Shown here piece after piece: positions 961 to 37,022 of a stretch of DNA of 38,389 nt. The notes beneath the pieces were generated by a model. That model did not search any database and had not been told where the DNA came from. It worked only from the letters and a program-made list of their open reading frames with translations. The translations under genes were made by a program, and so were the position numbers. The number at the start of each line of letters is the position of its first letter. Within the stretch, counting starts at the first letter, position 1. The DNA comes from a virus: positions 1 through 38,389 of the IMG/VR virus record IMGVR_UViG_3300032156_000889. One strand, 5' to 3'.

Positions 961-1737
961 ATGAAAACGATTGTTTGCGGTGCGGGATTTATAGGTAATC
1001 ATCTCATTAAAAAACTTCTGGATTTAAAACATGAGGTAGTTGTTTTTCATCACGATGATAAGATTGATATAAAAGACGCCGATTACATTTTTTATCTTTG
1101 CTCTTACGGTAATCATTATCATCAAAAAGATTTTTACCAGACTGTAAAAGCTAACATATTAGATTTATACGAACTTTTAAGAAAAACGAAAAATATACAA
1201 TATAAAGGGTTTATTCACTTTTCAACTTCATCAGTCATCCTGCCTGTCCAGACACCATATTCGGATACTAAATTTATTGCGGAGATTTTATGTAAACGCT
1301 TTTACAAGAAATACAACAAACCAGTAGTTTCAATAAGACCTTACTCTGTTTATGGTGAAGGCGAGGCTAAATTTAGGTTCATTCCAACAATAATAGATCA
1401 TCTTAAAAGTGGCAAATCCATGCCTTTAACTGCCGGCTATCATGATTGGATTTATATTGAAGATTTTATTGAAGCGGTTATCAAAGTGATGGAAAATTGC
1501 CAAAACTTGTCAGGAAAATCAGTACCGATCGGGACTGGAAAACAAACGAGCAACTTTGATGTATTGAGAATTTTAATGGAAGTGAGTAAGAAAAAGATTA
1601 AAACACAACATAGTTATAAGGTTAAAAGAATTTATGACACTAAAAACTGGGTAGCAGATACAACTTTGATTAAGTCTTTGGGATGGAAACCGAATTATAC
1701 ATTAAAAGAGGGTTTAAGAAAAACATGGATTGTCTAA
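961..1737 (+). CDS. NAD(P)-dependent sugar epimerase/dehydratase (extended SDR)
   Basis: 258 residues, short for the family. The N-terminus has the Rossmann dinucleotide motif (GAGFIGNHL, residues 7-15), and the SDR active site is seen as S-T-S near residue 87 and Y100-S-D-T-K104. These are the marks of nucleotide-sugar epimerases/dehydratases of the UDP-glucose 4-epimerase type, which act in the cytoplasm on activated sugars. It is the first gene of a cassette in which almost every neighbour overlaps the next; its 3' end overlaps the next gene by 13 nt. The exact substrate cannot be told. A second, diverged SDR lies at 3534-4274, so two steps of one sugar pathway are likely. Confidence 0.85.
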   Translation: MKTIVCGAGFIGNHLIKKLLDLKHEVVVFHHDDKIDIKDADYIFYLCSYGNHYHQKDFYQTVKANILDLYELLRKTKNIQYKGFIHFSTSSVILPVQTPYSDTKFIAEILCKRFYKKYNKPVVSIRPYSVYGEGEAKFRFIPTIIDHLKSGKSMPLTAGYHDWIYIEDFIEAVIKVMENCQNLSGKSVPIGTGKQTSNFDVLRILMEVSKKKIKTQHSYKVKRIYDTKNWVADTTLIKSLGWKPNYTLKEGLRKTWIV

Positions 1738-2447
1738 TTTGTAAGACTAAAACAGAAACAATAAAAGCTAAAGTTAATCCTTTTGTTGCCGAAAGAATGT
1801 ATCTTGACAAACCCCCAGAAATTTTTTTAAACATTTGTTTTTCCTGTGGGTTTAAGTTCTACTCACCCCGACCAAACGAGAAAGAGTTGAAAAGGCTTTA
1901 TACCGGCTACCGAGATGAAAAATACCAGAAAGACCGCCAAAAATATGATTTATGGTATACGAAAACTCTTAATAAGAACTTGGGTTATCACCCTATACAA
2001 ATAGAAACCAAAATCAAGAATATGATGACTTTTCTAAGGGGACATAAAATAAAAAGCGTTCTAGATTATGGAGGAGATCGAGGCCAATTTATGCCAGAAG
2101 CTCCTATACGGTATGTTTTTGACATATCGGGAGATAAGCCGATTAATGGGATTAAAGAATGGAAAGGAACACCGAAGAAATTTGATCTTGTGATTATCTC
2201 TCACTTATTAGAACATCTAAGCAATCCCCAACTCTTATTTAAAAAATTACGAAACTTAGGAAAAATCTTTTACATAGAGGTTCCTGCTAAAGGCCCAACC
2301 TACATTGATGGAACCTCCATAATGCACGAACATATTAATTTTTTTACCCCTAAGTCTTTAAATATTATGACTGGCGGTAGGTTCAAAATAAGAAATCTAG
2401 ATTTTGGTTTTTGTAAATATAAAGTTGTTTGTGGTTTAGTAATATGA
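1725..2447 (+). CDS. Class I methyltransferase with N-terminal zinc-ribbon-like CxxC pairs
   Basis: 240 residues from ATG 1725, which sits 13 nt inside the end of the preceding gene. The N-terminus has two Cys pairs (CLIC and CFSC), as in sugar C-methyltransferases of the NDP-hexose type, followed by a SAM-binding core with the motif VLDYGGDRGQF and, later, FDLVIISHLLEHL, typical of Methyltransf_23-like folds. Expected reaction: SAM-dependent methyl transfer, possibly to a nucleotide sugar given the neighbours. It ends with ATGA overlapping the next start, suggesting coupled translation. The target (sugar carbon or oxygen) is not known. Confidence 0.75.
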   Translation: MDCLICKTKTETIKAKVNPFVAERMYLDKPPEIFLNICFSCGFKFYSPRPNEKELKRLYTGYRDEKYQKDRQKYDLWYTKTLNKNLGYHPIQIETKIKNMMTFLRGHKIKSVLDYGGDRGQFMPEAPIRYVFDISGDKPINGIKEWKGTPKKFDLVIISHLLEHLSNPQLLFKKLRNLGKIFYIEVPAKGPTYIDGTSIMHEHINFFTPKSLNIMTGGRFKIRNLDFGFCKYKVVCGLVI

Positions 2448-3061
2448 CCGATTTAGAAAAAAGAATAGTTGAAATTTCTTATAAACATAAACTATCCCAT
2501 ATCGGTAGTTGTCTAATCTCAGTTAATATTATAGATAAAATCTATGGTCTTAAAAAGAAAAATGAGCCGTTTATTCTTTCAAATGGTCATGCGGGACTTG
2601 CTCTTTATGTAGTTTTGGAGAAATATGGCGGTCAGGATGCCGAGAAACTCTGGAAGAAACACGGAACGCACCCCAACCGTGATTTAAAGGATGGAATATG
2701 GGCCTCTACGGGGTCTTTAGGACATGGAATTGGAATTGCAGTAGGAATGGCACTCGCCGATAGATCAAGAAATGTCTATGTTTTAATGAGTGATGGGGAA
2801 TGTGCTGAGGGATCGGTTTGGGAAGCTCTTAATATTGCTGCTAAATATAGATTGGAGAACTTGAGAATTACAGTTGTTGCCAATGGTTATAGTGCTTACG
2901 ACAAGGTAGATAGGGATGACTTGGATATGCGGTTACAGTTATTTTATCCCTGTCTTGTTTTAAGAGCCAATCTTTTTATTCTACCTGATTATTTAAATGG
3001 ATTATTTGGTCATTACACAGTTTTAAATAAAAAACAATATAAGGAGTTAACAGGATTATGA
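2444..3061 (+). CDS. Transketolase, N-terminal (ThDP-binding) subunit
   Basis: 205 residues from ATG 2444. It covers the PP domain of transketolase only: early His motif (KLSHIGSCLS-like), SNGHAGLALY, GSLGHGIGIAVGMALA, then the ThDP/metal motif around SDGECAEGSVWEAL ending in VVANGY. The usual second Asn pair is AN here. It needs the partner encoded directly downstream (4-nt overlap) to make an active enzyme, as in split archaeal and cell-surface-polysaccharide transketolases. It would move a two-carbon ketol unit between sugars. In this cassette it more likely serves a nucleotide or surface sugar than central metabolism. Start chosen over an upstream TTG because of the ATGA overlap. Confidence 0.85.
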   Translation: MTDLEKRIVEISYKHKLSHIGSCLISVNIIDKIYGLKKKNEPFILSNGHAGLALYVVLEKYGGQDAEKLWKKHGTHPNRDLKDGIWASTGSLGHGIGIAVGMALADRSRNVYVLMSDGECAEGSVWEALNIAAKYRLENLRITVVANGYSAYDKVDRDDLDMRLQLFYPCLVLRANLFILPDYLNGLFGHYTVLNKKQYKELTGL

Positions 3062-3534
3062 GACGTTTATTTGCTGATGAGTTAAAAAAACAAATGGTCT
3101 ATGATGCCGATATTATTGTGATTACTTTTGATTTGGGATACAAACTTTGGGATCAAATAAGAGATGAATACCCAACAAGATTTTATAATGTAGGAGCTGC
3201 GGAAAGTGCGGGAATGGATATAGCGATGGGACTTGCTCTCTCTGGAAAAAAACCATTTGTTTATTCAATAACCAACTTTTTACTCTACCGACCTTTTGAG
3301 ACTCTAAGGACTTATATCAATTATGAGAAAATTCCCGTTAGGTTGGTTGCTAGTGGTAGAGATGAAGATTACGAGATAGATGGTATTTCTCATCATAGTA
3401 AAGATGCTAAACAGATTTTAGACTGTTTACCTAATATAATCCAATATTGGCCTGATGGAAAAAAGGGAATTCCTAATTTAGTAAAAAAAATGGTTGAAAT
3501 CAATAGCCCACAATTTATCAGTTTACGAAAATAA
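3058..3534 (+). CDS. Transketolase, central (pyrimidine-binding) subunit
   Basis: 158 residues. It is the Pyr domain only, with the catalytic Glu that activates thiamine diphosphate in VGAAESAGMDIAMGLAL. The usual C-terminal transketolase domain is absent, so the pair 2444-3534 is a minimal split enzyme. The start overlaps the stop of the N-terminal subunit by 4 nt and its TAA overlaps the next ATG by one base, so the two halves are probably made in equal amounts. The length is at the low end even for split versions (these often have 300 residues), which may mean altered assembly or a specialised substrate. Confidence 0.8.
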   Translation: MRRLFADELKKQMVYDADIIVITFDLGYKLWDQIRDEYPTRFYNVGAAESAGMDIAMGLALSGKKPFVYSITNFLLYRPFETLRTYINYEKIPVRLVASGRDEDYEIDGISHHSKDAKQILDCLPNIIQYWPDGKKGIPNLVKKMVEINSPQFISLRK

Positions 3535-4274
3535 TGATACTTTTAACAGGATTTAAAGGTTTTATCGGAAGAAATATCGCCGAGAAAATAAAAGTGCTTA
3601 CGCCTGATTTAGATATTTTAGATTATTATAGTTTAAATAAATTTGTAAGAGAAAATAGAGTAAGAACTGTAATTCATTGTGCCATAAAAGAGGTAACTAG
3701 AAGAAACGAAAATCTATATTGTAATACGACAATGCTTCTTAATATATTAAGATTGCCTGTCAAATATATAGTTTTATTTGGAAGCGGATCACAATTCAAT
3801 GATTATCCTAAAAGACCAGAATACAAATTATTTAAGGAAATTCAGGCAAAATTGATAAAACATGATAGACGGGTTGTTAATCTAATTTTATATGGTGTAT
3901 ATGGGAAATATGATGATATTAAAAATAAATTTATTCCTAATTCAATTATTAGAAGTTTGAATAAAAAAACAATAATAGTAAATCAGAATAGGGAAATGAG
4001 TTATTTATATGTAGGTGATTTAGTAAGAATTATTAAGTATTTTTTACATAAAAAGAAATATGGGTCTTATGGGATAGTTCCACCAAAAAGTATAAAACTG
4101 TCTGAAATAGCAAAGTTATTAGGTTTTTATAGAATAAAAAATAAAACACTCGCTCCAAAATATATAGGGAGTTGCGAGAAGATTAAAAAGGAATTGCCAC
4201 ACTTCAAATTTATCTCTTTTCAAAAAGGTCTTAGATTAACAGTTAAACATTTTAAAAAAAATATTTATGCTTAA
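3534..4274 (+). CDS. NAD(P)-dependent sugar reductase/epimerase (SDR), second copy
   Basis: 246 residues. It starts LLTGFKGFIGRNIAEK (Rossmann motif GxxGFIG) and has a Y-x-x-x-K active-site candidate (YKLFK, near residue 98) after a Ser-containing strand (FGSGSQF). The length and early part resemble GDP-fucose synthase/dTDP-4-dehydrorhamnose-reductase-like SDRs, so it could reduce or epimerise a keto-sugar produced by the other genes. It overlaps its neighbours at both ends. Clearly diverged from the SDR at 961-1737, so not a recent duplication. Confidence 0.75.
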   Translation: MILLTGFKGFIGRNIAEKIKVLTPDLDILDYYSLNKFVRENRVRTVIHCAIKEVTRRNENLYCNTTMLLNILRLPVKYIVLFGSGSQFNDYPKRPEYKLFKEIQAKLIKHDRRVVNLILYGVYGKYDDIKNKFIPNSIIRSLNKKTIIVNQNREMSYLYVGDLVRIIKYFLHKKKYGSYGIVPPKSIKLSEIAKLLGFYRIKNKTLAPKYIGSCEKIKKELPHFKFISFQKGLRLTVKHFKKNIYA

Positions 4275-4902
4275 GGCGCTTTTTTATCCTGATGTTCGTT
4301 TTGACTCGTTATATATTCCTTATATTTACAAGGAAATTTATCTTGAAGGAATATATATTGATATATTTAACACAAGAAAAGAGATGGTTTGTATAGATGT
4401 GGGAGCAAATATCGGTATTGTCACACAATATATAAGGGACTTCTCAAAGATAGTCTATGCGTTGGAACCAAGCTCGGAGCATTATGAGGCTTTGGCCAAG
4501 AACGTAGAATTTAACAAGTGGACTAATGTTAAACCTCTGAAGGTTGCTCTAACCGAGAAAGACGGAGAAATGACTTTAAACTTTCATCTTAAAAATAGGA
4601 CTTGTCATTCTTTAGCAATGGATTTTGGTAAAGGCGGAGAAAAGGTGAGAACGGTTTGTTTTGAAACTTTATTTAAGGAACAGAAGATTGATAAGGTTGA
4701 TTTTATTAAGTTTGATGTTGAAGGTTATGAAGAACAAATTTTAATGGGTGAAAGTTTTAAGAAGGTCGCTGATAAAATCTCGGCACTTGAAGTTGAGTTC
4801 CATTTTCCCACTTTTCCTAAAATCGTTGAACATATGATGAAGTTAGGTTACAAGGCAAGGCGGTATGACGCATCAGCAATAATAGTTCTTTTTACTCGTT
4901 AA
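4267..4902 (+). CDS. FkbM family methyltransferase
   Basis: 211 residues. SAM-binding motif DVGANIGIVTQY, acidic strand motif ALEPSSEHYEAL, and the FkbM signature DFIKFDVEGYEEQIL are all present and in the usual order and spacing. FkbM enzymes commonly O-methylate sugars in glycans or secondary metabolites. Here it probably acts on a surface glycan or on a sugar made by the upstream enzymes. The start overlaps the preceding gene by 8 nt. A second FkbM gene follows at 5056. Confidence 0.88.
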   Translation: MLKALFYPDVRFDSLYIPYIYKEIYLEGIYIDIFNTRKEMVCIDVGANIGIVTQYIRDFSKIVYALEPSSEHYEALAKNVEFNKWTNVKPLKVALTEKDGEMTLNFHLKNRTCHSLAMDFGKGGEKVRTVCFETLFKEQKIDKVDFIKFDVEGYEEQILMGESFKKVADKISALEVEFHFPTFPKIVEHMMKLGYKARRYDASAIIVLFTR

Positions 4903-4909
4903 CAAAATC

Positions 4910-5047
4910 ATGAAAAAAAATCAAAACTTTCTTAATTGTAAATTGGCTGGGATGATATTAAATAAAATATCTTTAAAGAAACCAAAGAAGAAGATTAAGA
5001 AATTTTCTATTAGAGATTGTTCTGTTGACAAGTATGAAAGTTGGTAA
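4910..5047 (+). CDS. Small basic hypothetical protein
   Basis: 45 codons plus stop between the two FkbM genes. The product has a strongly basic middle (KKPKKKIKKF) and two Cys. No family recognised. It fills the only gap in an otherwise gapless operon, starting 8 nt after the preceding stop and ending just before the next start, which favours a real gene, but it is short and could be chance. Confidence 0.4.
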   Translation: MKKNQNFLNCKLAGMILNKISLKKPKKKIKKFSIRDCSVDKYESW

Positions 5048-5055
5048 ATCAAAGT

Positions 5056-5676
5056 ATGATTAAATATTTTATAGATTCAATTAAACCTACTGGTATATGG
5101 GTTGATGACCCAAGATTTATAGAAGAAGTTATCAAAAGGGAAGAATACAGGTTTTTGTTTAATTATGACACGGTAGTCGATTTGGGAGCTAATATTGGTG
5201 CTTTTTCTTTCTATATCTATTCCTACGCTAAAAAGATATATGCGGTTGAACCAAACCCGAAAGCCATAGTCTGTTTAAAAAGAACCATAGAGGACAACTA
5301 TTTGGATAAAATTATACCCTGTGAATATGCCATAACATCTTCCATAGGCGATAGGTTTCTTTCCATAATTGACGGCGATCTCTGTTATGGTTCAAGCAGA
5401 ATAGATGACAAGGCAGGAATAATTGTTAAGGGAATTACCATAGAAGAGTTAATGAGATTGTATTCTATTGAATATATCGATCTTCTTAAAGTAGATATTG
5501 AATACAGTGAGAAAGAATTATTTGAATCACAAGCATTTAAGAATGTATCCAACAGAATTGGAACCATTATTGGTGAATATCACGACCAAAGAATTTTAGA
5601 AAGTATTGCTAAAAATATGAATGAGGCAGGATTCCGTTTTACTAGTTTAAAGCCTAAATTCATAGCTAGAAAATGA
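5056..5676 (+). CDS. FkbM family methyltransferase, second copy
   Basis: 206 residues from ATG 5056. Shows VVDLGANIGAFSFYIY (SAM motif I), YAVEPNPKAIVCLKR (motif II region) and IDLLKVDIEYSEKELF (the FkbM motif, with IEYSE in place of VEGYE). The loss of the Gly in that motif is slightly unusual. It is related to but clearly different from the FkbM gene upstream, so they may methylate different positions. The stop overlaps the next ATG by 4 nt. Confidence 0.85.
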   Translation: MIKYFIDSIKPTGIWVDDPRFIEEVIKREEYRFLFNYDTVVDLGANIGAFSFYIYSYAKKIYAVEPNPKAIVCLKRTIEDNYLDKIIPCEYAITSSIGDRFLSIIDGDLCYGSSRIDDKAGIIVKGITIEELMRLYSIEYIDLLKVDIEYSEKELFESQAFKNVSNRIGTIIGEYHDQRILESIAKNMNEAGFRFTSLKPKFIARK

Positions 5677-6452
5677 AAACGGTTGTGTTTGCTATTATAT
5701 CCGACCTTTTCTATATTCATGGAGGAGGAATTTTATTTATTAATTCCTTCCATCATTTCCATCCTGATATAGATTTGGTGGTTTTTCGTCAGAACATGAT
5801 TGATAAATGGGTTGATCCTAAAGCAAAAACATCATATGTTATAGATAAAACAGGACAAAGAAAGACATCGTTCTCTACCGCCAAACCTGTTTTTGGTAAA
5901 CTCTTAACGAATAAATACGACAAAGTTATCAATATTGACTGCGACACGATCATTACAGGTAGGTTGGATGAGGTATTGAAAGACGATTGGGAAGTGGGTG
6001 GGGTATGGAACTTTAATGATTTTGAAAATGCTTACTTTGATAATATCACTGCTGAAATGTATATACAGGCAGGGATGGTTGGTTCAACCAAACCTTTATT
6101 TTGGGAGAAATGGGATGAGGCGAACAAAGACGCCTCAAATTATAAACGGATAGAAAACGATACTTTAAATTTGGTTATCTATAACGATTCTGAAATAAAG
6201 AAATTAAAACTAAAGATTTTTGATAAAGATAAAGATTACTACGGTTGTAAGAGCCTAAATCGTGAGAAAGAAATGTATATTGAAAATGACGAATTGATGT
6301 TGAGGGGAGAGAAAGTAAAAGCCTACCATCAGGCAAAAGGCCCTATTTTACCTAAATTAAGGTTTGAAAGGTTGGGATTTAAACCCGAAGTAGTTGACTG
6401 GTTATATAAAATTGGCGTTTACGGACAAAGTTTTAAATCTAAAGGAATATGA
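5673..6452 (+). CDS. Glycosyltransferase, GT-A fold, DxD motif (paralog 1)
   Basis: 259 residues. N-terminal strand TVVFAIISDLFY, then a central segment VINIDCDTIITGRLDEVL in which D89-C-D91 is the metal-binding DxD of GT-A glycosyltransferases. A C-terminal block reads KDYYGCKSLNREKE and ends with a His-containing segment (KAYHQAKGP), as in GT8-like enzymes where a late His helps bind metal. It would transfer a sugar from a nucleotide sugar to a glycan in the host cytoplasm. The next gene is a clear tandem paralog. Confidence 0.8.
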   Translation: MKTVVFAIISDLFYIHGGGILFINSFHHFHPDIDLVVFRQNMIDKWVDPKAKTSYVIDKTGQRKTSFSTAKPVFGKLLTNKYDKVINIDCDTIITGRLDEVLKDDWEVGGVWNFNDFENAYFDNITAEMYIQAGMVGSTKPLFWEKWDEANKDASNYKRIENDTLNLVIYNDSEIKKLKLKIFDKDKDYYGCKSLNREKEMYIENDELMLRGEKVKAYHQAKGPILPKLRFERLGFKPEVVDWLYKIGVYGQSFKSKGI

Positions 6453-7189
6453 AATCAGTATTTTTTACCATTGTTAGTGATGATTACTATTATCAGGTGG
6501 GAACTCCTATCCTTATAAATTCTTTCAAAAGATTTCATCCCGATATTGATCTTGTGATCTTCCGGCAGGATATGGTAGAGAAGGTCTTTAAGGAAAAGCA
6601 TGTTAATTTCTATATGGCAAAACCAACTTTTGCTAAGTTATTGACTTCTAAATATGATTTGGTAGTGAATTTAGATGCGGATCATATAGTCCTTGACCGA
6701 CTGTCTACCATTTTAGATGGGGACTACGACATTGGGTGTCCTATTAACAAGAACGATTTTGAGAACTCAAGTATTGAAAATATTAATGAAGATATGTATT
6801 TACAGGGAGGACTTGTTGCTTCAACTAATAAGAGGTTTTGGGATATATGGGAGGAAAAGAATAAAGATGCAATGACCTATAAATGCAAGGAAAACGATAT
6901 TATGAATTTAGTTATTTACAACGACCCGATTGTTAGCAAAATGAAACTTAAGGTTTTTGACAAAAATAAGGACTACTATGGATGCAAGAGTTTAGGTCGG
7001 GAAAAAGAGTTTTATCTTGAAGATACTAAAGTTATGTGTAGAAAAGAACAGGTTTTTCTATATCACAATGCAATGGGATCACGGCTTCCAAAGTTACAAT
7101 TTGAGATGATGGGTTTCCCAAGACCAGTTATTAACCGTTTAAACCTTATAGGAAGTTATGGTAAATCCATAAAGATAGGAGAATTATGA
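6449..7189 (+). CDS. Glycosyltransferase, GT-A fold, DxD motif (paralog 2)
   Basis: 246 residues, colinear with the upstream gene through its length: INSFKRFHPDIDLVIFRQ matches the same place in paralog 1, the DxD is D76-A-D78, and the KDYYGCKSL-REKE block and the C-terminal YHNAMGS/LPKL segment recur. It lacks an insertion of about 15 residues that paralog 1 has before the DxD. Tandem duplication followed by divergence, probably to add different sugars or linkages. Overlaps neighbours by 4 nt on both sides. Confidence 0.8.
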   Translation: MKSVFFTIVSDDYYYQVGTPILINSFKRFHPDIDLVIFRQDMVEKVFKEKHVNFYMAKPTFAKLLTSKYDLVVNLDADHIVLDRLSTILDGDYDIGCPINKNDFENSSIENINEDMYLQGGLVASTNKRFWDIWEEKNKDAMTYKCKENDIMNLVIYNDPIVSKMKLKVFDKNKDYYGCKSLGREKEFYLEDTKVMCRKEQVFLYHNAMGSRLPKLQFEMMGFPRPVINRLNLIGSYGKSIKIGEL

Positions 7190-7947
7190 GAAAATACTAT
7201 TCGATATTCTGTCCACCTTACAGTATAACAAGTGGTGGTATTCGTGTAATGCATGGACTTAAATCGTGGCTTGCGATTAAGGGTGAGGTTGTTATGGAGA
7301 ATGTTAAATTTAAGGATGATTTTATCGCAGTTTATCCTGAGATAGTTAATGGTAATCCTTTCAATGCTCAAACTGTAGTCCGTTATATCTTACAAAAGCC
7401 TGGAATGATGACTTCAGGTGGAACTCCAGGGCCAACCGTCTTTGATAAGACTGACAAGATATTCGTGTTCTCCAAGCTCTACAATACTATGGGAGTTGAC
7501 GAGGATCATCTGATGTTTCTTCCGATTATTAACCTTAATCTGTTTAAGGATCAAAAAAGAAGAAGGTCAGGGAAATGTCTTTTTATAGGTAAAGGAAATC
7601 CCAATATAACAGTCCCAGGAACCTTTATAGTTGATCGTCCATTTGCCGAAGATCAGGAAAAGTTGGCAGATTATCTAAATACGGTTGAGGTAATGTTTGG
7701 ATACGATCCGGTATCGGCAATGTATGATATTGCCCGTCTATGTGGGTGTCGAGTGGTTGTATTGTCTTCTTGGTGGACGAAAGAGGAATTTGCCGACTAT
7801 GAACTATGTCAGGATTTTAACGGTCTATCTTGGGGAAAAGATGAAGGGAATAAAGTTGATTCAGGCTCATTTCGGGAACATTACATAAAGTTGGTTAAAT
7901 TAATGAGTCAGAAGATTGATTTTTTTATAAATGAATCCCAAAAATGA
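7186..7947 (+). CDS. Glycosyltransferase-like protein (GT-B type, tentative)
   Basis: 253 residues. Starts YYSIFCPPYSITSGGIRVMH, a Gly-rich N-terminal segment with a GGIRVMHGL turn like the donor/acceptor loop of GT-B enzymes, and has later segments ADYLNTVEVMFGYDPVSAMYDIARLCGCRVV that resemble the conserved C-terminal helix region (E/D-x7-E area) of GT4-like transferases. Shorter than usual GT-B proteins, so the call is by partial resemblance and by position between confident glycosyltransferases. Confidence 0.55.
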   Translation: MRKYYSIFCPPYSITSGGIRVMHGLKSWLAIKGEVVMENVKFKDDFIAVYPEIVNGNPFNAQTVVRYILQKPGMMTSGGTPGPTVFDKTDKIFVFSKLYNTMGVDEDHLMFLPIINLNLFKDQKRRRSGKCLFIGKGNPNITVPGTFIVDRPFAEDQEKLADYLNTVEVMFGYDPVSAMYDIARLCGCRVVVLSSWWTKEEFADYELCQDFNGLSWGKDEGNKVDSGSFREHYIKLVKLMSQKIDFFINESQK

Positions 7948-9026
7948 AAATTTATAAAATCTTTGCGCTTCCTAGTCATACTTTTGTCGATAAGGTCTCA
8001 GGGACAGATTATGTTAGAGTGATACAACCTCTCAAATATTTGGACGGTTATAAAGATAAGGAGGTTGAGTTTCAGGTTAAAGTTTATGATCATTCACAGA
8101 ATAAGTCTTTTGATTGGCGGGATATTTTCAGAGACTATGATGCTATTTATTTTAATTATACCTCAAATGATGTTGGTTATGCGATAATGGGACTTCTGGC
8201 TCAAAAATATAATCGTAAGTTAATTTGTGATATAGATGATGATATTTTCAATATCCTTCCAAATAATCCAGCTCATGAAGTATTTAAGAAAGGTGCTTGG
8301 GGAAATGTGGTAGTTAGGGCAGTTTTGGAGGATGTAGCCCATGTTACCTGCACCAATTCACACCTCAAGCATTCATTGGAGTTCAATGCTCAAAAAATGA
8401 AGGGAATTACGGTTATTCCAAATTACATTGATCTTTCTCTTTATAAATACCGGTGTAAGTTTAAAGACAGAGGTTATTATAAGGCCCTTCACTTTGGTTC
8501 TTCAACCCATCATGGCGATCTCTATTCTCCGGCTTTTGTTGAGGGTTTGGATCGAATAATGAAAGAATACCCTAATTTTACTTTTACAACAATCGGCTCG
8601 CATATTCCTAGATTTAAGAATAAATGGGGTATAAGATATGAAATCGCTTTTGGACATCAAGACCTTTTTGAGTGGATCAAAATGATGCCTGAAATTATGG
8701 ACGATACTGATTTTATGTTAGTACCTTTGGACAATAATACATATACAAGAAGTAAAAGCTCAATTAAAAGATGGGAAGTAAGTTCTTATAAAATTCCGTT
8801 TATCGGACAAAAAATTCGTCAATATAATGAAGTTGTAACTCACGGAGTAGATGGTTTATTATGCTCCACAGCAGACGAATGGTATAGTGCTATAAAGTTA
8901 ATGTTGGATAATCCCTCTAAAAGGAAAGAATTTGGTGAAGCTGGATATAAACGAACGGTTAAAGAGGCACAAATTCAAAATCATCTCGAAGAATATTCCG
9001 ATATGCTGAAAAAGGTATTGACTTGA
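7944..9026 (+). CDS. Glycosyltransferase, GT4-like (GT-B fold)
   Basis: 360 residues, normal length. N-terminal domain contains KLICDIDDDIF and VTCTNSHLKHSL then VIPNYIDLSLY, the usual inter-domain region of GT4 enzymes. The C-terminal donor-binding domain shows LVPLDNNTYTRSKSSIKRWE, then HGVDGLLCSTADEWYSAI, the conserved GT4 end. It would use an NDP-sugar to extend a surface glycan. Last gene of the sugar cassette; promoter and leader 2 follow directly. Confidence 0.88.
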   Translation: MKIYKIFALPSHTFVDKVSGTDYVRVIQPLKYLDGYKDKEVEFQVKVYDHSQNKSFDWRDIFRDYDAIYFNYTSNDVGYAIMGLLAQKYNRKLICDIDDDIFNILPNNPAHEVFKKGAWGNVVVRAVLEDVAHVTCTNSHLKHSLEFNAQKMKGITVIPNYIDLSLYKYRCKFKDRGYYKALHFGSSTHHGDLYSPAFVEGLDRIMKEYPNFTFTTIGSHIPRFKNKWGIRYEIAFGHQDLFEWIKMMPEIMDDTDFMLVPLDNNTYTRSKSSIKRWEVSSYKIPFIGQKIRQYNEVVTHGVDGLLCSTADEWYSAIKLMLDNPSKRKEFGEAGYKRTVKEAQIQNHLEEYSDMLKKVLT

Positions 9027-14000: not shown

Positions 14001-14192
14001 ACAATTTCCGATAAGCTAAAAGCACCAGCAAAACCCAAGAAAGTTACCTTTAAGATTACTAAACCGCCTAAACTAAAAACAATCAAACTTAAACTAGGGA
14101 AACCAAAGAAACTAAAGAAAATCAAGTTGCCGGTGATCAAAGAACCGAAGAAAGTTAAGTTAAGTTTGACAAAAGGAATTAAAAGAATATAA
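11007..14192 (+). CDS. Large internal virion protein (polyvalent/ejection type) with Lys-rich tail
   Basis: 1061 residues. Helical, Gln/Lys/Ala-rich overall. Around residues 466-500 there is a segment (RYNNMLSNPRTHLRNAFSNL) of the kind found in phage large polyvalent or ejected virion proteins. Residues about 370-410 predict coiled coil. The last 55 residues are a series of short basic repeats (KPKKVTFKITKPPKLK style) that could bind DNA. No catalytic motif seen. With 9672-10850 it forms the probable ejection module. A strong promoter lies inside its final codons (14166-14193). Confidence 0.65.
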   Translation: MALTLKNIANKIGELFNQGVSNFQGNVSAIANPQTRSTWFQGFTPPLQGPIGQGIRNVQAMARPTVFPTLARSVTPQMPQQLRQPISNLQQNLKLFTNPQTVGTMLKGFIPSQALNIKEDLFGESGVNKTREFLESKTPKGKIAQWLYKQIVYNPKERYFSKGMIGDVNRIALAEKQYKNKLISKKQLEDIKVGAMINPIFAVSMGIKEKPPVQGGVITKIKPEVPVKLPKNIQEQIQQSTASELGTIPTSLEANKKPLFVIKSGQKLPQAPGGTSGEIIPQEKYAYNVNLEKLNLKPEEKANLKKTIDIATPELQKFKGKTLSNEEVVKAAKTSEILQKTTTRDATLQAEAALLKARQQMVSLDKEVAQLAKSGNTPQLRAKLTELVDTLKVVSSNAGEKGRQLQALSINAGDESLRQQILKDILKTETDSNKVIEGAMKVNWDNANEVSKFYRAFVKPSVGQIIDEYRYNNMLSNPRTHLRNAFSNLVQTFLTRPATIAMKGDIKGVGQYYTGALKSFPEAVEAFVKSFKGETPIAKPDLQYISTHKLPRFMTIPTRAMEAADKFFSALIKGGEMARGATEQEAIKTAEYSLFRQGLKPEGQGKLLNGIDSLTNWMYKAPKAVRWFAPFIRTPMNFAKQWIEYSPLGVGTLPGAVNKQEQLAKAMIGSIVTAVGAKVALDGRTTWSAPTDPKQKEAFYATGRKPFSVMIGNKWVSMQYLGPFGLALAIPAAFKYQYDESRTALTDDQITKAAQSLMGMAEYFSGQTFLEGINNFVKLASGDVDYTLPKNLAYTTGQVIPLEGLVRYVSTIIDNVYRKPKGFMQQLQGNIPFASKQLPNYTMPFGEPSTRERINLATPYDITTNRPEYEQMYQERGQKLQQNAVINKMKTDYEQGTPTTSQTGTGNLEMDKAKLKYSNQDTMLSRNYFLYKDGDTIKKIDFLFQPKEPTLTGNTELDKKSVSKYKGEITKKANDIYTLYEKGFYTSDQAEAELAKLKTISDKLKAPAKPKKVTFKITKPPKLKTIKLKLGKPKKLKKIKLPVIKEPKKVKLSLTKGIKRI

Positions 14193-14193
14193 T
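14166..14193 (+). promoter_or_regulatory. Strong sigma70 promoter of leader 3
   Basis: TTGACA (14166-14171), 16-nt spacer, TATAAT (14188-14193): both hexamers are perfect. It overlaps the last codons of the upstream gene. Predicted start near 14200, leading into leader 3 and the tail genes. Confidence 0.75.
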
Positions 14194-21233: not shown

Positions 21234-21546
21234 AGGTGGTTAATAATTTAATGTATTCTTCTGGGCTAATTATATTCCCCGCTAATTTCTTAATGTCTTC
21301 TTCACTTATTGTCATAGTTGGGTAAATATCATTTCCTTTTATTAAGGCTAATTGTTTACATAAAAAAGTATACAACTTGTCTTTTAATGATAATTCCCAC
21401 CAATGTTCTGGGTCTAATTGCTTCAATTGGTCAATCCTTAATTCCATAAGTTTACTTATTCTTAACCAATTTTCTTTCTGTATTTTTTTATATTCTTCTT
21501 TTCTCATAGGTTTCTCCAAACCAAAGTCAATTTTAGGGGTTTTCAT
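21223..21546 (-). CDS. Hypothetical helical protein
   Basis: 107 residues, rich in Lys/Glu, with KKIQKENWLRISKLMELRI and EHWWELSLKDKLYTFL. No family recognised. Overlaps both neighbours by 11-14 nt, so it is part of the same translated series. Confidence 0.5.
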   Translation of the reverse strand: MKTPKIDFGLEKPMRKEEYKKIQKENWLRISKLMELRIDQLKQLDPEHWWELSLKDKLYTFLCKQLALIKGNDIYPTMTISEEDIKKLAGNIISPEEYIKLLTTYGK

Positions 21547-21970
21547 AATAATATTTTCTCCAATAATCAGGATGTTTTTTTCTAAATTCTATTGACTTTA
21601 ATCTAAAATATTCTTTTGGTATTTTATCTTTTTGAATTTTCCTATATTCTTTCATTTCTTTGGGATAAAGTTCCGATAAAATTTGATATCTTCTTCGGGA
21701 ATTTTGTCCTCTCTTTTCTATTTGGTTAGGTTGGGTTTTCAAGTAATCATAACTTTTATATATTTTTCTAAATAATTCCTTATATCCTCTTTTACAATGT
21801 ATCCTGACGGTATGTCTTGATACCCCAAGTTCCCTTGCGACAAACCGTTCAGAATTACCTTCATCTAACATAAATATTCCTTTTTCTATCATCTCATTGG
21901 TCATTTTCTTAAGAGTCCCTTGTTTTAGTCTATCTTTCGGTATTTTTATTTTCTTATCTTTACTGGACAT
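21533..21970 (-). CDS. HTH DNA-binding protein, homeodomain-like
   Basis: 145 residues. Residues about 35-58 hold a helix-turn-helix (ERFVARELGVSRHTVRIH). The C-terminal part is basic and aromatic (YRKIQKDKIPKEYFRLK, then HPDYWRKYY). Similar small phage proteins combine HTH with a basic tail; could be a regulator of the early operon or a remnant of a homing-related protein. ATATG start follows the TTCCCATAAATAAAT junction. Confidence 0.6.
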   Translation of the reverse strand: MSSKDKKIKIPKDRLKQGTLKKMTNEMIEKGIFMLDEGNSERFVARELGVSRHTVRIHCKRGYKELFRKIYKSYDYLKTQPNQIEKRGQNSRRRYQILSELYPKEMKEYRKIQKDKIPKEYFRLKSIEFRKKHPDYWRKYYYENP

Positions 21971-22239: not shown

Positions 22240-22461
22240 CTAGCCTTTGGGGGCTTTATCCAACTTAAAATGACCGTGGATTTCATTTATTTCTATCTGT
22301 CCGCATTTTTTACACAGTCCTGAATATGTAAACTTTTCGTGATAATATCCTGTTGGATATTTAACCAAGCCCCAAAACAAACTTACTTCACCTATTTTTA
22401 TAAATGATCTTTCTTTATCTATTGCTTCTTCGTATTGATGTGTATTTATTGCTACTGCCAT
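22240..22461 (-). CDS. Hypothetical protein with CxxC
   Basis: 73 residues with a CKKC near residue 50 and nearby His, maybe a small metal site. No family recognised. Start context is the recurrent junction described for the early genes. Confidence 0.45.
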   Translation of the reverse strand: MAVAINTHQYEEAIDKERSFIKIGEVSLFWGLVKYPTGYYHEKFTYSGLCKKCGQIEINEIHGHFKLDKAPKG

Positions 22462-22463
22462 AT

Positions 22464-22640
22464 TTATTTATGGGAATTAACTAATAACGTGCTTCTTACC
22501 TTTTTACAGCCAAAACAAACTTGAGTCAGTCCGTCATGGAAAGTGCTATAGATAGCCTGTTGGGTATGTTTTCCCTCGCACTTTTGAATATGCCGTCTGA
22601 CATCTTCTTGATTTTTATAATATTCGTATTTAAAGTTCAT
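22464..22640 (-). CDS. Small Cys/His-containing hypothetical protein
   Basis: 58 residues. Contains HIQKCEGKH and VCFGCKK, which could form a CHCC zinc-ribbon-like unit. ATG at 22640 overlaps the stop of the larger gene upstream (ATGA), so translation is probably coupled. Its own last codons are the TTCCCATAAATAA junction of the next gene. Confidence 0.5.
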   Translation of the reverse strand: MNFKYEYYKNQEDVRRHIQKCEGKHTQQAIYSTFHDGLTQVCFGCKKVRSTLLVNSHK

Positions 22641-23572
22641 TTTAGACCAGTAATTTTTAATCCAAACTTATCACATTCGTATAATACTTTCCCTGTTCTA
22701 AAAGCTATCTTGTGGGGATAAGAGGGGTTTTTATCCCAAACATGGACATTCTTTTTATTGACTTTTATTGCTATATATTTGTCGTTAATCGAATTTCTAA
22801 ACTCATCGCAAAAATAAGGTCGTGAGCAGGCGTGAAGTTTACCCGCCCCGCACTCGTTATTTTTAGGTGCCCAGTCTTTTATTTTAACCGTTTTCCCAAT
22901 TGGATAATTAAATTCGTTTGAGGTTCCCTCTTGAGTTTTAAAGTCTTTTGATACCCGCTTGTAAATGATAAAATCACCTTTCGTATCTCTTTTAACCGCA
23001 TTACTATTGAGCCAACCTTTTAAACCTTTTTCTGTTTTAGGTTTAATAATTGTCGCTGTTTTGGATTTTTTAATTACCTTACCAAGCGAAGTCACGAAAC
23101 AAACTGCATACATAAACAAGGTAACGATTGCGTTAGTTGATTGTAGATAAGTGGCGACATTTCCCCAAGCCACTACTGTTGAGTTTTCCCAAGCCACTAC
23201 TGTTGAGTTTCCCCAAGCCTCTACTGTTGAGTTTCCCCAAGCCTCTACTGTTGAGTTTTCCCAAGCCTCTACTGTTGAGTTTTCCCGAGCCTCTACTGTT
23301 GAGTTTCCCCAAGCCACTACTGTTGAGTTTTCCCGAGCCACTACTGTTGAGTTTCCCCAAGCCACTACTGTTGAGTTTCCCCAAGCCACTACTGTTGAGT
23401 TTTCCCAAGCCACTACTGTTGAGTTTCCCCAAGCCTCTACTGTTGAGTTTTCCCAAGCCACTCTGACAAATATCGTTTCCTTAGTATCTTTTAAATAGAT
23501 ATAGGTAAACTCTTTAAATGTTTTTGGCAGTTTGTCAAATTCTGCCTGTGTTGAGATATATATTTCTTTCAT
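22637..23572 (-). CDS. Octapeptide-repeat protein with DUF7666-like C-terminus
   Basis: 311 residues. N-terminal 40 residues, then 12 copies of an eight-residue repeat of the form (G/E)NSTV(V/E)AW at about residues 41-136, a hydrophobic stretch (IVTLFMYAVCFVTSL, about 150-164), and a C-terminal domain of about 130 residues with Cys/His motifs (CGAGKLHACSRPYF) that looks like the small domain seen in other phage/bacterial proteins (DUF7666-like). The repeat likely forms a short beta-solenoid. Function unknown. Neighbours in the operon also carry repeats of other kinds. Confidence 0.6.
   Translation of the reverse strand: MKEIYISTQAEFDKLPKTFKEFTYIYLKDTKETIFVRVAWENSTVEAWGNSTVVAWENSTVVAWGNSTVVAWGNSTVVARENSTVVAWGNSTVEARENSTVEAWENSTVEAWGNSTVEAWGNSTVVAWENSTVVAWGNVATYLQSTNAIVTLFMYAVCFVTSLGKVIKKSKTATIIKPKTEKGLKGWLNSNAVKRDTKGDFIIYKRVSKDFKTQEGTSNEFNYPIGKTVKIKDWAPKNNECGAGKLHACSRPYFCDEFRNSINDKYIAIKVNKKNVHVWDKNPSYPHKIAFRTGKVLYECDKFGLKITGLK
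23160..23463. repeat. 24-bp tandem repeat array (12-13 units)
   Basis: Units of 24 bp whose core reads CAAGCCACTACTGTTGAG on the plus strand, repeated head to tail with few changes (mostly CAAGCCA to CAAGCCT or CCCGAGCC). Because 24 is a multiple of three, five other frames also stay partly open; those frames are not genes. The units differ by single bases, consistent with slippage or recombination among copies. Confidence 0.9.
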
Positions 23573-23587
23573 ATTTATCTATGGGAA

Positions 23588-23830
23588 TTAACTTTTAATA
23601 AGTCCTAATTTTCTTAACTTAGATATAGGAATATGAATTTGTTTATAATAGGCCTTTCGGTAGGCCTTATATTTATTAGACTTTTGGTAGGCCTTTCGGT
23701 AGGCCTTATCTTTATTAGACTTTTGGTAGGCCTTTCGGTAGGCCTTACCTTTCGCTGTTTTTAACCAAACAGCTTGACGGCTGATACCTTGTTTATTAGC
23801 TATTTGTTGTAGAGTTTTTATTTTTTTCAT
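23588..23830 (-). CDS. Small HTH protein with 11-residue KAYRKAYQK repeats
   Basis: 80 residues. Residues 4-27 hold a helix-turn-helix (TLQQIANKQGISRQAVWLK) followed by three tandem copies of an 11-residue basic repeat (KAYRKAYQKSN) and a C-terminal IPISKLRKLGLI. At DNA level the repeat is about 33 bp. HTH plus positive repeats suggests a DNA-binding regulator. ATG overlaps the stop of the Ala-rich protein gene upstream. Confidence 0.6.
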   Translation of the reverse strand: MKKIKTLQQIANKQGISRQAVWLKTAKGKAYRKAYQKSNKDKAYRKAYQKSNKYKAYRKAYYKQIHIPISKLRKLGLIKS

Positions 23831-35347: not shown

Positions 35348-37022
35348 ATGGCAACTGCAAGAGAAAACACAAGTGCAAACCTACCACAAGAGGTAGCGAC
35401 CTATTATGAAAAGGTCTTTTTAGCAAGAGCTGAGTACCAGCTTATTGCTAAAGAAGGTGGTCAGATAAGGACTCACGCATCAGGAGAAGGAAAAACTATA
35501 AACTTCACCCGATACGTTCCTTTGACCGTCAACCTCGCATCAGGTTTGATCACAGAAGGTTCCAATCCGTTGTTATGTGCAATTACGGCATCAACGATTT
35601 CTATGGGGCTATGTGAGTATGGTTTGACTGTGCAAACAACCAAATTCTTGTCGACAATCTCCATAGATAAAAATATGGCAGAAAAGGTGGCATTGGTTGG
35701 TCAGCATATGGGTGAGTATTTGAACATGTTGGTTTTGAACGAACTGTCAAATGGTACAGCGTATTATGCGAATAGCAAAAATACCTCTACCTATGCGGCA
35801 TCTGATACCTTCGCCGCTTCAATGATAAGAGGGATTACTAGAACTCTAGAGTTGAATAAAGCGATGGAGTATCCAGATGGTTACTTTTTAGGAAAAGTTC
35901 CACCTCAAGCCAAGTATCAGCTTTTAGGAGACAGTACTTGGATCAATGCTAAAACCTACTCTGATGTAAAAGACTTATACAAAGGCGAAATGGGAGAACT
36001 CTATCAAGTTAGATGGCTTTTGAATAAGGACTATATGTCAGCGGTGGGTGCGGCATCTGAGGCATCGGTTGTAGCAGCGTTCTATACGTTCATTCACGGT
36101 GCTGAAAGTTTCGGATGTTATGATCTTGACAAAACAGGATCTTTTGCTAGTGATAGCACTATTAAATTTCGAGAAGTCGGTGAAAATCCAGAACGGATAA
36201 CACCGAGCGGAGCCCTGCAAAGGGAACGTGTAACGACTATGCACGAAACCCTCGAAAAGAGGAGAAGAGATAGTCTGAACTGATTGGGAACAATCAGAGT
36301 TTGGCAGAAATGTCCAAACCGCACATTAACAACTTGACATCGGAAAACGCTTAGAGTATAATAATCCGTATATGATAAACATAGAAAGGGAATTTATAGG
36401 ATTTCTAATAGGAGAAGGATGTTTTAGAGTAAGTAAACAAAACAGAAAGTGGAAAAACAATCGGATAAATTATAGACCACAAATAAGCGTTGCTCAAAGA
36501 GCAGATAATATAGAAATGCTTAAATGGGCTAAGGAAAGATTTGGTGGTACTTTAGTAAGAAGTGATGGTAGACGAGATATTCCTAATCAAAATCCAGCAT
36601 ATGCTTGGATTTTAACGTCTTGTGTTACTTGTCTAAAAGTATTAGAACTTTTTTTACAGATAGAATTACCAAACAACAAATTAAAACAAGCAAAATTACT
36701 TTACGATTTCTGTAAATTGAAAGCTCAATACAAAAATATGACAGGTAAACAAAAATATGGAATTAATAAAAAATTTTATTATAATGAAAAAGATTATCAA
36801 TATCAGGAATATGTCTACAACCAATTATCTTTCTTAAAACGATATCAAGCAGTGTAGTAACAAAATTGTGAAGGGGACAAGCCAAGACTTTATATTCTTC
36901 CAAACTTAGTGGACTCCGGTTCACCAGCTGGACGAATAAGTAAAATATCTTGGGCGGGAAGTTATGCAACAAAAATACTCAATAGTGATTGGGTAATTGT
37001 TTGCAAAACTCCAACTTCGTAA
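35348..37022 (+). CDS. Major capsid protein, N4-gp56 family, gene split by a group I intron
   Basis: Coding parts are 35348-36126 and 36869-37022, giving 310 residues. Exon 1 carries the family pattern: EVATYYEKVFLARAEY, TRYVPLTVNLASGLITEG, LTVQTTKFLSTISID and KYQLLGDSTWINAKTYSDV... ending FGCYDL. Exon 2 supplies EGDKPRLYILPNLVDSG, PAGRISKISWAGSYATKIL and NSDWVIVCKTPTS, the expected C-terminal strand. The reading frame is restored exactly: last bases CT of exon 1 plus T of exon 2 make a Leu codon. Without splicing the frame would run 52 codons into the intron and stop at 36281-36283, replacing the conserved end. AGGTG precedes the ATG. Confidence 0.9.
36334..36362 (+). promoter_or_regulatory. 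Perfect consensus promoter inside the intron
   Basis: TTGACA (36334-36339), 17-nt spacer, TATAAT (36357-36362), both hexamers exact. Predicted start 36368-36370, only 2-4 nt before the endonuclease ATG. This gives the intron gene a promoter of its own, with a nearly leaderless RNA. Confidence 0.8.
36372..36857 (+). CDS. LAGLIDADG homing endonuclease, intron-encoded
   Basis: 161 residues, one motif (FIGFLIGEGCF at residues 8-18, with E15 at the acidic position), so it probably works as a homodimer. The rest has the family's order: QISVAQRADNIEMLKWAKERFGGTL, a strand, then KLKQAKLLYDFCKLKAQ. It should cut intronless copies of the capsid gene near the exon junction and spread the intron. Fully inside the intron and ending 11 nt before the 3' splice site. 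Confidence 0.88.
   Translation: MINIEREFIGFLIGEGCFRVSKQNRKWKNNRINYRPQISVAQRADNIEMLKWAKERFGGTLVRSDGRRDIPNQNPAYAWILTSCVTCLKVLELFLQIELPNNKLKQAKLLYDFCKLKAQYKNMTGKQKYGINKKFYYNEKDYQYQEYVYNQLSFLKRYQAV

Follow-up and report, generated by a model that had tools for sequence, protein, structure and literature searches.

A probable mobile group I intron with its own LAGLIDADG-type endonuclease gene interrupts the major capsid gene of a phage

The major capsid gene in the window (the whole stretch of DNA analysed here, 38,389 nucleotides of the virus record IMGVR_UViG_3300032156_000889) is interrupted by a group I intron of 742 nt at positions 36127 to 36868 of the plus strand. With a probability of about 0.93, we consider it a mobile element that splices itself out of the capsid transcript and is spread by its own endonuclease, which is probably made from a promoter of its own. 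The intron anatomy, the empty sites in relatives, the intact open reading frame (ORF), the promoter consensus and a class of related introns can all be observed directly. Group I introns in phage capsid genes are already known, and the window intron is a further member of this kind of element.

A preliminary description of this DNA had proposed the intron and suggested a covariance search as a check. The Rfam group I model RF00028 matched positions 36117 to 36297 with 57.6 bits (gathering cut-off 50, E 8.5e-14), and ungapped intronless relatives likewise confirmed the intron. A scan of the whole window with default filters reported no match to RF00028, while the intron scored above the cut-off otherwise. 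The junction can be placed in four ways (shift 0 to +3) that give an identical mRNA, and only at shift 0 (36126/36869) is the last base of exon 1 a U that forms a U.G pair with the guide while the intron itself ends in G. Thus the splice sites given earlier were upheld as a choice among four placements by the U.G and terminal-G rules. Meanwhile, the 5' 255 nt of the intron folded with -70.5 kcal/mol, which gave z = -4.8 against shuffled sequences.

The U.G pair in P1 at the 5' site, the terminal G and the P3-P7-P8 core of a group I intron are all present. As read from the sequence, the exon strand of P1 is GATCT (36122 to 36126), whose last base is the U of the U.G pair, and it pairs with the internal guide sequence GGATC (36137 to 36141). 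It is followed by the P2 hairpin TGCTA-GTGA-TAGCA with a GNRA loop (36145 to 36158; sequence and folding) and by the 5' strand of P3, TTTCG (36167 to 36171), whose partner CGAAA lies at 36244 to 36248 in the RF00028 alignment. Both the alignment and the sequence place P4 and P5 at 36177 to 36206 (TCGGTG/CACCGA at 36177-36182/36201-36206 and ATCC/GGAT at 36186-36189/36195-36198, with J4/5 strands AAA and AA), P6/P6a at 36207 to 36229, and the two strands of the guanosine-binding helix P7, GACTA and TAGTC, at 36235 to 36239 and 36271 to 36275. The P8 hairpin CCTC-GAAAA-GAGG was found at 36250 to 36262 by folding and sequence. Downstream are the P9 hairpin with its GNRA loop GGAA (36280 to 36297) and the P9.1 hairpin with the conserved GCAGAAATG (36299 to 36319). 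The intron ends at 36857 to 36868 with the conserved GTAACAAAATTG, including the terminal G; P9.0 and P10 comprise only about 2 bp each. The P1 pairing, P2, P4, P5, P7, P8, P9 and the J4/5 AAA thus agree with the preliminary description. Its account of the anatomy was nevertheless incomplete, as P3, P6 and P9.1 are present too and an endonuclease ORF at 36372 to 36857 had been missed.

P9 and P9.1 are further supported by covariation. When the 3' domains of 22 related introns (the window intron included) were aligned and scored for the two helices as read from the window intron, 95.7% of the cells were paired, with 95 double changes vs 28 in shuffled alignments. The covariation score was 0.847, compared with 0.229 for shuffled and 0.06-0.13 for slid helices. 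The scoring covered these two helices, as ORF insertions break the alignment of P7 and the remaining core.

The interrupted gene encodes a major capsid protein of the N4-gp56 type. Exon 1 (35348 to 36126, plus strand) contains 259 codons and 2 nt, matches TIGR04387 and phrog_1357, and has intronless homologues with 90-92% amino acid identity. Exon 2 (36869 to 37022, plus strand) carries the rest of the gene including the stop, is ungapped in the homologues, and joins exon 1 in frame to give 310 codons. The spliced product scored 124.6 bits against TIGR04387 (N4-gp56 major capsid, cut-off 60) over positions 2-322 of 324, whereas the unspliced 311-aa reading scored 109.7 bits and stopped at position 282, with the C-terminus lost. 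The intron sits at residue 260, within the conserved DL|EGDKP motif of the capsid protein. The only genome match of this capsid protein was a short MAG contig.

A search of 2.9 million viral contigs for capsid homologues revealed the empty site. In three contigs (L003, L004 and L005) the capsid protein is a homologue of 310 aa with 90-92% identity and no gap, and in two of them (L004 and L005) the nucleotide alignment crosses the junction without a gap over 311 nt. Because these uninterrupted capsid proteins span the junction point without a gap, the empty site is directly seen. It was also found gap-free in L003-L012 and in all other relatives covering the junction. The best 80 related contigs by score were of full or near-full length without an interruption at the window site; as ranking by score favours uninterrupted genes, this says little about the intron frequency. 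Eight intronless relatives (L007, L009-L012, L018, L039 and L103) have kept the target GATCT|TGAAGG unchanged, and the symmetry of the target site is limited to 12/30 matching positions with no clear palindrome. In L010, whose protein is 75% identical, the bases immediately flanking the junction are identical to those of the window. Co-conversion of the exon flanks is weakly suggested by the codon identity of exon 2 in this relative (p = 0.045, uncorrected).

The distribution of the intron is patchy. Among 23 capsid-bearing records, the single RF00028 match above the cut-off was the window itself, and 43 further records gave none above it and one sub-threshold match of 18 bits. LAGLIDADG_1 matched only the window among 42 records, and a 20-base core pattern detected no close relative of the window intron. 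Since no second RF00028 intron above the cut-off was present in the 65 related records, the distribution is mobile-like.

The 3' half of the intron is occupied by an intact ORF for a protein of 161 aa (36372 to 36857, plus strand). By domain, motif and predicted fold it is a LAGLIDADG homing endonuclease of the single-motif type: the LAGLIDADG_1 domain (PF00961) matched with 32.6 bits, the motif GFLIGEG with its acidic residue is present, and the AlphaFold2 model, built from an alignment of seven intron-encoded proteins, reached a mean pLDDT of 75.5. The best PDB matches of the model include I-OnuI, I-TnaI and I-CreI (E about 1e-6 to 1e-5). By analogy with I-CreI, the length of 161 aa and the single motif suggest that the endonuclease would work as a homodimer. 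Searches with its protein sequence found no close relatives; a candidate, L002, was rejected as a chance peptide match within a long structural-type ORF. It should also be mentioned that phrog_5046, labelled as an HNH endonuclease, matches the LAGLIDADG proteins of both the window and the L027 contig described below, and this label looks wrong or mixed.

A perfect sigma-70 consensus, TTGACA-N17-TATAAT, lies at 36334 to 36362 on the plus strand, 9 nt upstream of the endonuclease start codon. By expectation, about 0.06-0.08 perfect sites would occur in the window as a whole and about 2e-5 in the gap that holds this one; the window contains two. Nine bases lie between the end of the -10 box and the ATG, with no recognisable Shine-Dalgarno sequence, and the predicted transcript would accordingly be near-leaderless. 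The intron may express its nuclease independently, from this predicted promoter. A similar near-leaderless promoter-like site (10/12) precedes the ORF of the related intron L147. The other perfect site in the window (12/12, 16-nt spacer, 14166-14193) is located at the end of the gene for a 1061-aa internal virion protein. Another repeated element of the window is the 24-base AGTTAATTCCCATARATAAATATG on the minus strand at 22459-22482 and 23570-23593, where it stands immediately ahead of two genes and extends across their start codons; its chance expectation is 0, a looser form stands before the gene at 21533-21970, and it is possibly a shared leader or promoter. A sugar-type gene run with epimerase, methyltransferase and glycosyltransferase families was also observed at 961-9026 of this 38-kb phage contig.

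Splicing, cleavage, homing and the timing of expression are predicted here from the sequence. The intron at DL|EGDKP would leave the capsid transcript in the usual two transesterification steps started by guanosine, with P1 (GAUCU.GGAUC) and probably also P9.0 as guides, and exon joining would restore the capsid protein of 310 aa. A homodimer-type LAGLIDADG endonuclease would most likely cut the intronless allele in a co-infecting relative, and repair of the cut allele would copy the intron in. The endonuclease would probably be made from its own sigma-70 promoter on a near-leaderless mRNA, either earlier than late capsid transcription or independently of it. Homing is directly testable, as the junction is known exactly, relatives offer an intact empty site and the endonuclease ORF is intact too.

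The idea of the preliminary description that head assembly is controlled through splicing was speculation. A regulatory switch, with the timing or extent of capsid synthesis and head assembly set by how efficiently the intron is spliced, might be imagined because the capsid protein is a bulk late product and inefficient splicing would become limiting. However, close relatives make the same capsid protein with no intron, the element has its own endonuclease and promoter-like site, and the capsid intron of mycobacteriophage LittleE was spliced efficiently during late expression according to its authors (PMC3706429). Such a switch is thus highly improbable; the endonuclease, the promoter-like site, the intact empty sites and the patchy distribution agree better with mobility than with a regulatory role. 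It is scarcely credible that the core or the endonuclease is defunct and that the virus makes a read-through capsid protein of 311 aa ending at 36283. The read-through frame does stay open for about 52 codons past the junction, but every core helix pairs, the ORF is intact, exon 2 has kept the invariant residues of the family, and exon joining restores the family C-terminus.

By analogy, the main role of the endonuclease might be to cut the capsid gene of co-infecting relatives that lack the intron and so to disable them, with homing as a by-product. This reading is compatible with that of a mobile intron and differs from it in the target of selection. Several intronless relatives retain the exact exon target, and a precedent exists in phage PhiPA3, whose intron endonuclease gp210 damages a competitor, PhiKZ, through its RNA polymerase gene (PMC11620839). 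We regard interference as the main function as possible but rather unlikely.

Another group I intron lies at 5323-5998 of a MAG contig (JAACVK010000010.1, here L027), where it splits a related N4-gp56 capsid gene close to the N-terminal end. The capsid protein is 63% identical to that of the window, and the 676-nt element lies at residue 19/20 and contains a LAGLIDADG-type ORF. Its P1 is formed by GACCT at the end of exon 1 and the guide GGGTC with a U.G pair, its last twelve bases are the same GTAACAAAATTG, and it shares the hairpin with GCAGAAATG. RF00028 gave no match on L027, probably because the ORF splits the core. The residue 19/20 site is likewise occupied in L169. A distant N4-gp56 capsid protein (28% identical) is interrupted near residue 34 in four further contigs (L136, L161, L167 and L174), which have one intron in common, and a LAGLIDADG-type ORF was read in L136.

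Viral contigs were then searched with a pattern made only of the intron bases common to the window intron and L027, which gave 69 matches. With L027 counted in, the P7 strand AGTCYGA was found upstream in 33, representing 26 distinct introns (25 further ones and L027), and AACAAAATTG at the 3' end is common to the class. Host genes, assigned by the 3' or 5' exon, encoded major head proteins of several unrelated families in 17 of the 26 cases (L027, L169, L113, L115, L121, L131, L136, L137, L147, L158, L165, L173, L124, L130, L133, L164 and, weakly with E 6e-4, L123). One portal gene (L163) and one tape-measure gene (L152) were also hosts, and the remaining seven introns had no host-gene assignment. 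The head families include phrog_752, 267, 283, 1357, 2522, 9953, 1328 and Phage_capsid_4. Within N4-gp56 (phrog_1357), introns occur at residue 19/20, close to residues 34, 75 and 105 as judged from alignment offsets, at 260 (the window intron), and approximately near the C-terminus in L124 and L133. In view of these 17 introns and of the precedent of LittleE (PMC3706429), the preliminary opinion that introns in capsid genes are rare is not supported.

These data point tentatively, at somewhat less than even odds, to a widespread phage group I lineage with GCAGAAATG in the P9.1 loop and AACAAAATTG at the 3' end. It would be specialised on virion genes, mainly major capsid genes of unrelated families, and would move among many sites with exchangeable LAGLIDADG/HNH endonucleases, with an early-type promoter for the endonuclease in the present case. 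A comparison sample, collected by a P7-sequence pattern without any P9.1 or 3'-end condition, gave at least 71 downstream ORFs. Among the Pfam matches listed, capsid families accounted for about 13, minor tail protein for 6 and terminase for several, with one each for ribonucleotide reductase, exonuclease and PhoH. The prominence of virion genes in this sample too weakens the case for the class defined by GCAGAAATG and AACAAAATTG as special. Moreover, viral contigs are recognised partly by virion genes, so the enrichment of virion genes carries a sampling bias.

The most interesting lead of this study is that the related introns favour genes for virion structure, an under-appreciated niche. 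That the class is found mainly in capsid, portal and tail genes, and in phages that are uncultured, suggests that the picture drawn from model phages is a sampling effect and that the element follows a selfish strategy, directed at any gene that is conserved and essential.

Self-splicing group I introns with homing endonucleases are well known from phage genes such as td, nrdB and nrdD of T4 and from SPO1 and Twort. Phage IA introns have a P7.1/P7.2 insertion, and none was seen in the window intron. Unlike the window intron, those of T4, SPO1, Twort and the Bastillevirinae are mainly found in genes of nucleotide and DNA metabolism. According to a 2025 study, the Bastillevirinae introns colonise only this category, to which most split phage genes belong; the study asked for the reason for this restriction and proposed that the introns are on-switches (PMC11878797). 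Each Jug phage genome carries some 18 group I introns (PMC12363816).

Compared with the window intron, those of L027 and L169 share the N4-gp56 capsid gene, the U.G pair in P1 (checked in L027), the 3' end GTAACAAAATTG, the P9.1 loop GCAGAAATG and a LAGLIDADG-type ORF. They differ in the insertion site and in the ORF, which lies upstream of P7/P8 rather than after P9.1, and BLASTP gave no significant match between the window and L027 endonucleases. The capsid gene of Tuc2009, a lactococcal phage, also contains a group I intron, as cited in the LittleE paper, our source for it (PMC3706429). LittleE, described in 2013, carries a capsid intron whose splicing was demonstrated by RT-PCR and N-terminal sequencing and whose ORF is similar to LAGLIDADG endonucleases (PMC3706429). 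This intron, probably of group I, shares with that of the window its place in a major capsid gene, the U in which exon 1 ends and the final G of the intron. The capsid and the host are different, and the LittleE ORF lies on the opposite strand, whereas that of the window stands on the sense strand, after P9.1 and behind a consensus promoter.
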